From: Marnyiella aurantia | GTDB lineage: Bacteria; Bacteroidota; Bacteroidia; Flavobacteriales; Weeksellaceae | Reading direction: 5' to 3' | NCBI RefSeq assembly: GCF_014041915.1 | Contig: NZ_CP059472.1 | Span: forward strand, 2,046,001 to 2,110,000 | Length of the DNA: 64,000 bases | In this document: positions 2,719 to 23,169 of the stretch, one piece after another | How the letters are laid out: each line of letters starts with the position of its first letter | Numbering within the stretch: the stretch's first letter is position 1 | Notes under the pieces: model-generated | Told to the model about the DNA's origin: nothing | What the model saw: the letters and a program-made list of their open reading frames with translations, nothing else | Databases searched by the model: none | Made by a program: the position numbers and the translations under genes

Positions 2719-2754
2719 GGCGCACAGATTTCACAGATTTGCACAGATATAATT
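2719..2754 (+). repeat. Left terminal inverted repeat of the GxxExxY element
   Basis: It begins GGCGCACAGATTTCAC and continues with CACAGAT words. It is the imperfect inverse of 3165-3200, with one substitution and a 1-nt gap before the next CACAGAT word. Confidence 0.75.
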
Positions 2755-2785
2755 TTTTGCATAGTATTAATTCAAATCGAAATGT

Positions 2786-3166
2786 ATGACAGAAAATGAG
2801 ATGACATATCTGATTAGAAAGTCAATTTTTGAGGTCTATAATGTGCTCGGTCCTGGATTATTGGAAAGTGTTTATGAAAAGGCGTTAGAGATTGAGCTTG
2901 AAAATAACGGTTTAGCACAGGTGCCGCAGTTTCCCATTTCGGTAGATTATAAAGGAATTTCGTTAGGCCTCGGATTTCGGGCAGACATTTTGGTAGAGGA
3001 GAAAATCATAATCGAGGTTAAATCAGTGGTAGAATTAGCGCCGGTTCATCATAAACAATTATTAAATTATCTTAAACTAACTAATCTGCATCTAGGTATT
3101 TTGGTTAATTTCAACACTGATAATCTGAATGCGGATATTGTCAGAATCATAAACGGTTATGTGTAA
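2786..3166 (+). CDS. GxxExxY family protein (PD-(D/E)XK nuclease-like)
   Basis: A 126-residue protein with the defining GxxExxY motif at residues 24-30 (GLLESVY). D67 followed by E77-V-K79 (IIEVKSV) matches the D...ExK core of the PDDEXK_3 fold, and HHKQLLNYLK follows at 88-97. Family knowledge places it in the PD-(D/E)XK nuclease superfamily; the substrate is unknown, so nuclease activity is inferred. No operon partner. The ATG at 2786 is the first in frame, and the stop at 3164-3166 overlaps the right inverted repeat. It separates paaZ from the glycosylase gene without breaking either. Confidence 0.85.
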   Translation: MTENEMTYLIRKSIFEVYNVLGPGLLESVYEKALEIELENNGLAQVPQFPISVDYKGISLGLGFRADILVEEKIIIEVKSVVELAPVHHKQLLNYLKLTNLHLGILVNFNTDNLNADIVRIINGYV

Positions 3167-3200
3167 TAATTATCTGTGTGATCGGTGAAATCTGTGCGCC
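3165..3200 (+). repeat. Right terminal inverted repeat of the GxxExxY element
   Basis: It starts AATAATTATCTGTGTG right at the ORF stop and ends GAAATCTGTGCGCC. Its inverse matches the left repeat at 2719-2754. The same sequence, with GATCTG instead of GATCGG, closes each of the five downstream cassettes. Confidence 0.75.
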
Positions 3201-3254
3201 TTTTATGCACACAGATTTCACAGATTTTCACAGAATCTAAATCATTAAAACTCC

Positions 3255-3377
3255 ATGCAAACGTTCGGCGAAAACAGTGTGATCATTAACAAAATCCGCA
3301 ACTACCGTGGTTTGCTGGCTCTAGGTTTGCATGTGACTGGAGTCTTTATCAATACGTATGAGACTATGGTATGTTAA
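3255..3377 (+). pseudogene. Cassette ORF 1: 40-codon SMUG2 N-terminus-like fragment
   Basis: An intact ATG-to-TAA ORF. Residues 1-37 align without gaps to the first 37 residues of the protein at 4309, with 17 identities by hand count: MQTFGE, V9, N12, K13, Y17, G19, L21, G24, V27, F31, E36, T37. Codons differ mainly at third positions in the shared MQTFGE. The ORF closes in the repeat-supplied TAATAA. It is either a decayed gene start or a small peptide gene. Confidence 0.6.
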
Positions 3378-3465
3378 TAATTATCTGTGTGATCTGTGAA
3401 ATCTGTGCGCTTTTTATGCACACAGATTTCACAGATTTTCACAGAATCAAAATCATTAAAACTCC

Positions 3466-3588
3466 ATGCAAACGTTCGGCGAAAACAGTGTGATCATTAA
3501 CAAAATCCGCAACTACCGTGGTTTGCTGGCTATAGGTTTGCATGTGACTGGAGTCTTTATCAATACGTATGAGACTATGGTATGTTAA
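3466..3588 (+). pseudogene. Cassette ORF 2: SMUG2 N-terminus-like fragment
   Basis: The same 40-codon ORF as at 3255 with one residue change (L23 to I). The frame is intact and the flanking palindromes are complete on both sides. Confidence 0.6.
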
Positions 3589-3676
3589 TAATTATCTGTG
3601 TGATCTGTGAAATCTGTGCGCTTTTTATGCACACAGATTTCACAGATTTTCACAGAATCAAAATCATTAAAACTCC

Positions 3677-3799
3677 ATGCAAACGTTCGGCGAAAACAGT
3701 GTCATCATTAACAAAATCCGCAACTACCGTGGTTTGCTGGCTACAGGTATACATGTGACTGGAGTCTTTATCAAAACGTATGAGACTATGGTATGTTAA
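3677..3799 (+). pseudogene. Cassette ORF 3: SMUG2 N-terminus-like fragment
   Basis: An intact 40-codon ORF with position 23 as T (L in ORF 1, I in ORF 2), L25 to I and N33 to K, plus a silent GTG to GTC change. Most differences from its sister copies are amino-acid-changing, which argues against strong purifying selection on the peptide. Confidence 0.6.
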
Positions 3800-3886
3800 T
3801 AATTATCTGTGTGATCTGTGAAATCTGTGCGGCTTTATGCACACAGATTTCACAGATTTTCACAGAATCTAAATCATTAAAACTCC

Positions 3887-4009
3887 ATGCAAACGTTCGG
3901 CGAAAACAGTGTGATCATTAACAAAATCCGCAACTACCGTGGTTTGCTGGCTATAGGTTTGCATGTGACTGGAGTCTTTATCAATACGTATGAGACTATG
4001 GTATGTTAA
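3887..4009 (+). pseudogene. Cassette ORF 4: SMUG2 N-terminus-like fragment
   Basis: The encoded peptide is identical to that of ORF 2. The junction hairpin on its left is one base shorter (GCGGCTTTATGC), giving the single 210-bp period in the array. Confidence 0.6.
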
Positions 4010-4097
4010 TAATTATCTGTGTGATCTGTGAAATCTGTGCGCTTTTTATGCACACAGGTTTCATAAATTTTCACAGAATCAAAATCATTAAAACTCC

Positions 4098-4220
4098 ATG
4101 CAAACGTTCGGCGAAAACAGTGTCATCATTAACAAAATCTGCAACTACCGTGGTTTGGTGGCTATAGGTTTGCATTTGACTGGAGTCTTTATCAATACGT
4201 ATGAGACTATGGTATGTTAA
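4098..4220 (+). pseudogene. Cassette ORF 5: SMUG2 N-terminus-like fragment
   Basis: An intact 40-codon ORF with R15 to C, L21 to V and V27 to L, plus the silent GTC shared with ORF 3. The hairpin to its left has a decayed right arm (CAGGTTTCATAAATTTTC). It is the copy next to the full-length gene. Confidence 0.6.
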
Positions 4221-4308
4221 TAATTATCTGTGTGATCTGTGAAATCTGTGCGCTTTTTATGCACACAGATTTCACAGATTTTCACAGAATCTAAATCATT
4301 AAAACTCC

Positions 4309-4998
4309 ATGCAAACCTTCGGTGAGAAAGTCGTAGAATTCAACAAAAAATTAAAATATACCGGCACACTTCCGGAAGGTTTTGATGTGCTGAACCCTTT
4401 TTTCGATAATCCTGAAACGCTGGAGGTTATGACTTCCTTTTACCATAAGTTTTACAGCGATCATTGTTCGAGGAAATTTATCATTGGTATCAATCCCAGC
4501 CGGCATGGCGCCGGCGTTACCGGAGTTCCGTTTACGGATACGAAAAGGTTGCAGTCGGTATGTGGGATAGAAATGAAGTCCGCGCATACGCATGAGATTT
4601 CATCGGTTTATCTCTATGATGTTATTGAACAGTATGGTGGTGCGGAGCGGTTTTATGCGGATTTTTATATAAATTCGCCGTTTCCTCTGGCTATCATCAG
4701 GAAGCAAAAAAATGGAAGTTGGCTGAATGCGAATTATTACGACGACAAGTCACTGTTTGAGGCTGTAAAGAAATTCATGGTTGAAAGCATCAGGAATCAT
4801 ATCAGTTTAGGCCTGGATACTTCGGAAGTGTTTGTTTTGGGAAAGAAAAATGCTGCGTTCATTGAGAAACTCAACAGTGAAAACCATTTTTTCGATAAGT
4901 TGACAGTGTTGGAACATCCAAGATACATTCAACAGTACAAAAGCAGGGAGAAACAGTTATACATTGATAAATATTTAATTGCGCTAAATAAAGAATAA
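4309..4998 (+). CDS. SMUG2-like uracil-DNA glycosylase (DUF4918 family)
   Basis: A base-excision repair enzyme expected to remove uracil and related lesions from DNA. The 229-residue protein has the active-site loop GINPSRHGAG at residues 60-69, followed by VTGVPFTD, and a C-terminal HPRYIQQYKSRE segment near 208-220, the pattern of the SMUG2 branch known in Bacteroidota. The start is fixed by the family-like MQTFGEKVVEFNKKL. Its N-terminus is the full-length relative of the five cassette ORFs upstream, and its ATG lies 18 bp after the last junction hairpin. The stop overlaps the next start by one base (TAATG), so it is co-transcribed with the hydratase. No promoter is evident upstream, so transcription probably enters through the array. 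Confidence 0.85.
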   Translation: MQTFGEKVVEFNKKLKYTGTLPEGFDVLNPFFDNPETLEVMTSFYHKFYSDHCSRKFIIGINPSRHGAGVTGVPFTDTKRLQSVCGIEMKSAHTHEISSVYLYDVIEQYGGAERFYADFYINSPFPLAIIRKQKNGSWLNANYYDDKSLFEAVKKFMVESIRNHISLGLDTSEVFVLGKKNAAFIEKLNSENHFFDKLTVLEHPRYIQQYKSREKQLYIDKYLIALNKE

Positions 4999-22796: not shown

Positions 22797-23169
22797 TTTT
22801 GGAGAGAAGAAAGAGCCAGAACCATGAACCTAGACTTCAGATATGAGAGGTTAGATGTTAGAAGTTAGAAGTTAGAAGTTAGAAATTAGAAACTGCAGCT
22901 ATAGGTCAAACTAACCAGTCACCAATCACCCATCACCAGTCACCAATCACCATTCACCAGCAACAAAGGCTGCAGACATCAGCTATTTGATGCGAGAACT
23001 TAGAAACTGCAGCTATTGCTCACAAGTTTGCCAACAGCCTGTCAGGTGTGCATACAGCTTGAAGCTTATAGCTTGAAGCCAAAAGCTATCCACGGATCGC
23101 TAACCGCTGAATGCTCAACCAATCACCAGTCGCCAATCACCAAAAACTAATCAAGTCTGCACAAAAAAA
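22797..23169. repeat. Post-rrn interval of mixed word repeats
   Basis: About 370 bp without a gene. In order: TTAGATGTTAGAAGTTAGA words (22850-22890), CACCAGTCACCAATCACC words (22918-22963), a 17-bp exact direct repeat TTAGAAACTGCAGCTAT at 22886-22902 and 23000-23016, AGCTTGAAGCTTATAGCTTG near 23058, and a second block of CAATCACC words near 23118-23142. Confidence 0.7.

Follow-up and report, generated by a model that had tools for sequence, protein, structure and literature searches.

The small GxxExxY nuclease gene in the window, by which we mean the whole 64,000-nucleotide stretch of Marnyiella aurantia DNA that was analysed (part of a single 2.61-Mb contig), probably forms one functional unit with the repeat arrays that flank it. 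Such a unit would be a minimal element made of a nuclease and its repeats, similar to RAYT/REP but with an unrelated enzyme. That GxxExxY recognizes the repeats is something we infer from the co-evolution of the two.

The GxxExxY gene and its arms in the window

The gene occupies positions 2786 to 3166 of the forward strand and encodes a protein of 126 amino acids, which profile matches and a structure model identify as a putative PD-(D/E)XK nuclease. Its neighbours, paaZ on the left (181-2715) and a gene of the uracil-DNA-glycosylase superfamily on the right (PF03167; 4309-4998), are both on the forward strand and intact. The preliminary description was right that the block between them breaks neither gene and that an intact GxxExxY frame lies between inverted repeats. 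The left arm, GGCGCACAGATTTCACAGATTTGCACAGA, at 2719-2747 on the forward strand, consists of three 9-10-bp words pointing inward (array GCGCACAGATTTCACAGATTTGCACAGA at 2720-2747); its partner at 3172-3200, on the reverse strand, is inverted and imperfect. Both are built of CACAGATTT-like repeats, 9-10 bp each, in inverted arrays round the gene. The outer 16 bases of the two repeats are identical, as had been described; the accompanying length of about 36 bp is a loose figure, the complementarity being 95% over 20 nt.

The protein matches TIGR04256 with 138.1 bits against a cut-off of 35 (E 1.6e-40) and PF13366 with 137.3 bits against a cut-off of 22 (E 4e-40). This agrees with its earlier placement in the PDDEXK_3 group, a family whose entries give no role. 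PF13366 is the only Pfam match, the HUH/Y1 family PF01797 being absent from this protein. The catalytic residues E27, D67, E77-x-K79, Q91 and Y95 are intact and are invariant, or nearly so, in 70 homologues from several phyla, the window protein included. With these homologues the structure model reaches a pLDDT of 95.6 (42 when modelled from the single sequence). Its nearest fold is that of Cas4 SSO0001 (Z 10.1 over 95 residues), followed by RecB and lambda-exonuclease types, the Holliday-junction resolvase Hjc (Z 7.2) and restriction enzymes. The modelled fold and the residues support a predicted DNA-cleaving activity as distinct from any particular substrate, middling Z values of this kind being common. 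The protein contains no cysteines, the PADLOC model for Cas4 matches it only at E 0.036, a sequence search yielded no solved relative, and a search of a phage collection for signs of phage origin gave no match. In the open-access literature, where GxxExxY is named only in unrelated contexts, we found no description of flanking repeats or mobility for it; most subscription journals lie outside that coverage.

Arms around GxxExxY genes in other genomes

We scored the best match between the left flank of a gene and the reverse complement of its right flank, with long ORFs from the same loci as controls. In other genomes of the family, 30 of 59 GxxExxY genes (51%) score 15 or more, against 0 of 87 control ORFs. 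When the flanks of the 59 genes are crossed at random, 3% reach this score; since such pairs have the same base make-up, they answer the objection that the flanks of control ORFs are biased by being coding. An independent sample, 80 named loci taken from species genomes, gives 36 of 78 against 0 of 88 controls (p 8e-18), with 6% for cross-locus pairs. This set spans Cyanobacteria (Anabaena, Nostoc and Tolypothrix, where the arms almost touch the start and stop codons), Planctomycetota, Ignavibacteria, Balneolaceae and one alphaproteobacterial MAG. Altogether armed genes were found in Bacteroidota, Cyanobacteria, Gemmatimonadota, Planctomycetota, Ignavibacteria and Alphaproteobacteria. Some are on plasmid records, namely of Gemmatirosa, Bernardetia, Bacteroides (in the order radA-GxxExxY-FAD gene) and Sphingomonas. 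In the last the gene lies between fabD and fabG; its left array is clear, and the right one is apparently within the 3' end of the ORF.

The arms have a common grammar. Over 165 loci, the word CRCNNA(G/T) occurs 4.67 times per gene pointing inward versus 1.59 times pointing outward, the corresponding values for controls being 1.07 and 1.21. At least two inward words on each side are present at 82 of 165 GxxExxY loci and at 6 of 191 controls. Spacing between neighbouring words peaks at 9-10 bp, with a second peak at 19-21, and the median distance from arm to start codon is 26 bp and to stop codon 10.5 bp. The link is strong, not universal: about half of the sampled genes are armed and, at the sensitivity used, about half lack two clear arms. 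Genes without visible arms, which the preliminary description had regarded as speaking against a connection, do exist.

Repeat type and protein clade

Different GxxExxY genes have different words, and the words follow the protein. With each of 80 genes labelled by its dominant word, the label changes 16 times on the protein tree, compared to a mean of 49.5 for shuffled labels, none of 200 shuffles being as low. A 134-aa subclade found in six genera has CATTAAG words, a 137-aa subclade has CACATAG words, and the window gene's own clade has CAGATT words. Because some loci are orthologous across genera, comparison of pairs was limited to those without shared distal context. Among pairs from different genera, the same repeat label is shared by 7% at 30-50% protein identity, then by 32%, 52% and, at 70% identity or above, 64%. 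Among GxxExxY pairs that share a genome and are less than 50% identical, 0 of 11 share a label. The left and right arms of a given element are closer matches to each other (median 14.5) than to arms of the same type from elements of other genera (10.0), as would fit a shared binding protein, pairing or conversion.

The link extends to whole genomes. Pairs of CAGATT-type repeats are present in 58 of 90 genomes with a GxxExxY gene and in 6 of 58 without (148 genomes; Fisher 2.5e-11), the mean number per genome being 3.8 and 0.19, respectively; the reversed pattern gives two matches in all 148. At the level of genera the counts are 14 of 20 with the gene versus 0 of 13 without it, and within genera the co-occurrence is weaker (p 0.02). 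Thirty-two of the 90 gene-bearing genomes have no repeats of this type, the only one counted genome-wide. Where a CAGATT-type gene was sampled the repeats number 7.9, against 4.0 otherwise (p 0.007). Genomes of genus g8, whose GxxExxY genes number up to eight and, where sampled, are mostly of other types, have almost no CAGATT repeats. The number of GxxExxY copies per genome ranges from 0 to 10. As to repeats in genomes that never had the gene, which would have told against the original proposal, the six gene-less genomes with repeats all belong to genera with gene-bearing relatives.

The M. aurantia genome itself contains three GxxExxY genes, all within degenerate inverted arrays, which are of three flavours: CACAGATTT for the window gene, CGCAGATTT and CACAAAGRT. 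The copy flanked by CGCAGATTT is a pseudogene with a TAG. Its 3' end and arm (L002, 1141-1900) are partly duplicated in tandem, a smaller version of the array in the window. Allowing up to two mismatches, there are 53 copies of the arm word in the 2.61-Mb genome, which cannot be due to chance as the reversed pattern does not occur at all. Arrays of the same words without a gene occur in gene-bearing genomes, and here they form clusters at 126-131 kb and 502 kb, both beside tRNA-Met genes. Two of the large gene-free CACAGAT arrays abut tRNA-Met(cat) genes directly (L051, 893-966; L052, 1587-1660), and at 126-131 kb and 502 kb tandem arrays of these words have periods of about 108-114 bp. All copies in the window and the rest of this genome lie between protein genes, with no insertion in rRNA.

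The 211-bp tandem array

Behind the gene, a tandem array of 5.5 copies with a period of 211 bp and 96% matches (TRF) extends from 3158 to 4322. Each unit consists of a right arm, a TTTTTAT loop, a left arm and a 5' fragment of the glycosylase gene, and unit starts are 211, 211, 210 and 211 bp apart. The unit junctions had been described as long hairpins with this loop, and so they prove to be. The first junction palindrome (3172-3234) folds with z -8.0 and the second (3383-3445) with z -8.8, better than any shuffled sequence; the others are at 3594-3656, 3805-3866, 4015-4077 and 4226-4288. The loop measures 6-7 nt. A single arm folded alone gives no hairpin; only arm pairs fold. The last left arm (4261-4288, forward strand) is directly upstream of the intact glycosylase gene.

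The five units had been taken for cassettes with a 40-codon ORF of their own. The array and the shared repeat ends are real; independent nuclease-free cassettes they are not. The ORF, MQTFGENSVIINKIRNYRG..., can be aligned with codons 1-38 of the glycosylase (MQTFGEKVVEFNKKLKYTG...) with no gap. Its protein score of 70 exceeds 59, the best of 2000 shuffles retaining the first six residues MQTFGE, and nucleotide identity with the glycosylase 5' end is 52%. We therefore reject a 40-aa gene proper to cassettes: the five forward-strand copies (3255-3377, 3466-3588, 3677-3799, 3887-4009 and 4098-4220) are decayed 5' ends of the glycosylase gene. Their codon-position pattern, 16/12/24 (p 0.12), gives no clear sign of selection. 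Since the ORF is derived from the glycosylase, the arm and leader upstream of it are nearly identical to those preceding the real glycosylase gene, and the units differ from each other at only 0-7 of 123 bases, the array is, judged by its sequence, a tandem duplication of one arm junction with the decayed 5' end of the neighbouring gene, apparently homogenised or recently amplified. The idea that the units are nuclease-free cargo mobilised in trans finds no support in them. In Rfam no family reaches, or comes near, its gathering score with this DNA, the array has no terminator-like site, and promoter-like hexamers recur in its units. Tandem arrays around such words, with no GxxExxY gene inside, were also observed in other genomes; their units have periods of 389, 209 and 159 bp (L312, L313, L315), with CACAGAT words in a single orientation.

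It is possible, though we are inclined to doubt it, that the window array is just an ordinary tandem duplication, produced when slippage occurred at a palindrome, and is uninformative as to the nuclease. Its units do carry a piece of an adjacent gene, and similar arrays, often of one orientation, exist with no GxxExxY inside. Such slippage would account for the 211-bp array only, not for the association of GxxExxY with arms, and that arrays recur where these words occur suggests a promoting effect of the words.

Filled, empty and scarred sites

The element of genome G084 is absent from congeners, in which its flanks are 1 bp apart (G055, a genome without any GxxExxY) or 3 bp apart (G012). The same site is filled in G103 and G110, and in G071 it is a scar ending in TTTTGCGTTAAA. 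Nine congeners have the site of the G022 element (L126) filled and at least six have it empty; in G153 it has contracted to 261 bp without a gene. The lpxH-side element of M. aurantia (L003) is present in G001 as well, and G002 and G003 have the empty site; a GxxExxY ortholog persists at the lpxH locus. Given that some filled sites are common to several genera, much of the inheritance is vertical. No target-site duplication was seen at the G055, G012 and G071 sites, in comparisons between different species of about 90% identity. With arms found across phyla, repeat types that track protein clades and near-precise empty sites, the repeats behave as the gene's own ends, which supports their earlier description as recognition ends.

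Between paaZ and the glycosylase gene, G002 has a bare stretch of about 38 bp, and the congeners G001 and G003 (L037, L038) have instead a RAYT (PF01797) with REP-like palindromes. This junction is a hot spot common to unrelated enzyme-repeat elements. Where M. aurantia has its GxxExxY pseudogene, G001 has a four-helix-bundle gene between heptamer arrays. In G094, at the junction of the G084 element, CAGATT-type arms bracket a small membrane-protein gene (L321, 508-880), the single further gene that we found bracketed by such arms. We considered this gene as foreign cargo and rejected the idea, as it is resident at the junction without such arms in other genera (G010, G146, G158). Elsewhere in G094 (C1:2055472-2055969, L320), CACAGAT arrays seem to fall within a long reading frame that by eye resembles HypF, as though the repeats had become coding.

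Could the repeats instead be independent MITE-like elements, moved by another enzyme and preferring intergenic gaps, with GxxExxY a passenger or merely a gap gene? We think this unlikely. Gene-free arrays are common, in congeners RAYTs with REPs and four-helix-bundle genes with heptamers occupy the same junctions, and the G094 arms surround a resident gene, as such elements would lead one to expect. Yet repeat type follows the GxxExxY clade rather than the genome, neighbouring genes never have such arms in either control set, many arms abut the start and stop codons, and genera without the gene are also without the repeats.

Still less likely is that we are dealing with an ordinary gene of the host, for a nuclease or for repair, with regulatory arms (autoregulatory operators, promoters or terminators), the dispersed copies having decayed or been recruited. 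Phased short repeats by a start codon do resemble operator arrays, the promoter-like hexamers of the units would fit, and so would the persistence of one ortholog next to lpxH. Against regulation stand a mirrored copy of the array behind the stop codon, the wide range of copy number, the near-precise empty sites and the lack of a terminator-like site in the array.

Least probable of all is an element that acts as RNA, in the manner of the 23S rRNA intervening sequences with S23, and whose arms would pair in the transcript round the ORF and be processed (by RNase III, for example), leaving the DNA repeats as by-products: own arms do match best, as pairing requires, the Coxiella intervening sequence has terminal inverted repeats, an ORF and variable direct heptamers (PMC4990558), and four-helix-bundle genes show similar inverted short repeats, but none of the inspected loci is in rRNA, a loop of about 400 nt makes a weak case, the PD-(D/E)XK fold is usually that of a DNase, and no Rfam family matches at its gathering score.

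A possible mechanism

Several suggestions can be made as to how a unit of nuclease and repeats might work. The arm word C-R-C-N-N-A-G/T comes once per 9-10 bp, and with this spacing its copies would face roughly the same side of the helix. Each clade of GxxExxY proteins may bind its own word as an array of sites, and the enzyme may nick or cut there. Repair of the break might then draw on another copy or proceed through the annealing of repeats to each other. Such repair could insert or remove the element and leave gene-free palindromes behind; it could also give rise to tandem duplications such as the 211-bp array. That array probably goes back to a single duplication, which reached from the nuclease gene's end to about codon 38 of the glycosylase gene, and may have grown through unequal exchange. 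As far as the open-access literature goes, the pairing of a GxxExxY enzyme with repeats appears to be new; the nuclease may drive mobility.

Four-helix-bundle genes

Another family of genes shows a similar arrangement. Four-helix-bundle genes (TIGR02436, S23-like) are present in ten copies in the M. aurantia genome, between inverted arrays of 7-bp repeats (L146-L175; L184, 2630-3130) of the types AGTTTTGAG, GGTGACTGGT and TTAGAAG; nine of 30 score 15 or more for inverted flanks. In the window, gene-free heptamer arrays of this type lie behind the 5S rRNA gene (22839-22960). GxxExxY and four-helix-bundle genes are often no more than 3-6 kb apart (e.g. in G127, G131, G128, G096, G084 and G149), seemingly above chance by a rough estimate.

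Implications

The name GxxExxY turns up very often in annotations, with no role attached to it, and intergenic repeats of the CACAGAG/CGCAGATT type recur in many genomes. Position, clade-specific sequence and shared presence or absence link the two and suggest a first testable hypothesis for both, that of a cognate enzyme and its substrate. If the enzyme spreads the repeats, it would be a second, unrelated fold to have arrived at the RAYT/REP life-style. A wider proposal, which we hold tentatively and with slightly more doubt than belief, is that GxxExxY represents a class of minimal selfish DNA found across phyla, in which a Cas4-like PD-(D/E)XK nuclease recognises phased arrays of 9-10-bp repeats and spreads both itself and arrays lacking the gene by cut-and-repair, the RAYT/REP life-style having been reached independently; four-helix-bundle (S23) proteins and their heptamer arrays might represent a third system of this kind. 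Should the enzyme spread the repeats, an enzyme with cognate dispersed repeats would be a general mode of minimal selfish DNA, and a source of small sequence-specific DNA-processing enzymes with readable target codes.

Comparison with known systems

We know several systems with some of these features. MITEs and insertion sequences have terminal inverted repeats, gene-free derivatives and empty sites as well; the GxxExxY element differs in having no known transposase and, at the best empty sites, no target-site duplication that we could find. The 23S rRNA intervening sequences with S23 ORFs, which have been called selfish, also combine a small ORF, inverted repeats and short direct repeats of variable number, as the heptamers in Coxiella illustrate (PMC4990558), but they are located in rRNA, are excised as RNA and encode a protein unrelated to GxxExxY. 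With the Cas4, RecB and lambda-exonuclease nucleases the protein shares its fold and the motif order D...ExK...QxxxY. It differs from Cas4 in its length of 126 aa, in the absence of the cysteines of the Fe-S cluster and in its neighbours, which are paaZ and the glycosylase gene instead of cas genes. The segments between arms in the window are near-identical gene fragments, so the unique spacers of a CRISPR array are missing.

The closest likeness is to the REP-associated tyrosine transposases, RAYTs, and their REPs (REPtron, BIME, REPIN; PMC2817692, PMC3116915, PMC8266576). In both systems a gene for a small DNA-processing enzyme is situated between two inverted repeats, the repeats co-evolve with the enzyme clade, cognate repeats are abundant where the gene is present (here for the CAGATT type only), doublets form hairpins, and there is no obvious cargo. 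The differences concern the enzyme, PD-(D/E)XK in one case and HUH/Y1 in the other (the RAYTs of G001 and G003 match PF01797), and the repeats: a GxxExxY arm is a phased 9-10-bp direct repeat, not itself a palindrome as a single REP is, and it often touches the ORF. The case for RAYT/REP as made in 2010 consisted of inverted flanking REPs, co-evolution and abundance of cognate REPs (PMC2817692), and biochemical support came later (PMC8266576). The GxxExxY element shares these three features and is not a member of RAYT/REP, since its enzyme is not of the HUH type and its single repeats are not palindromic.
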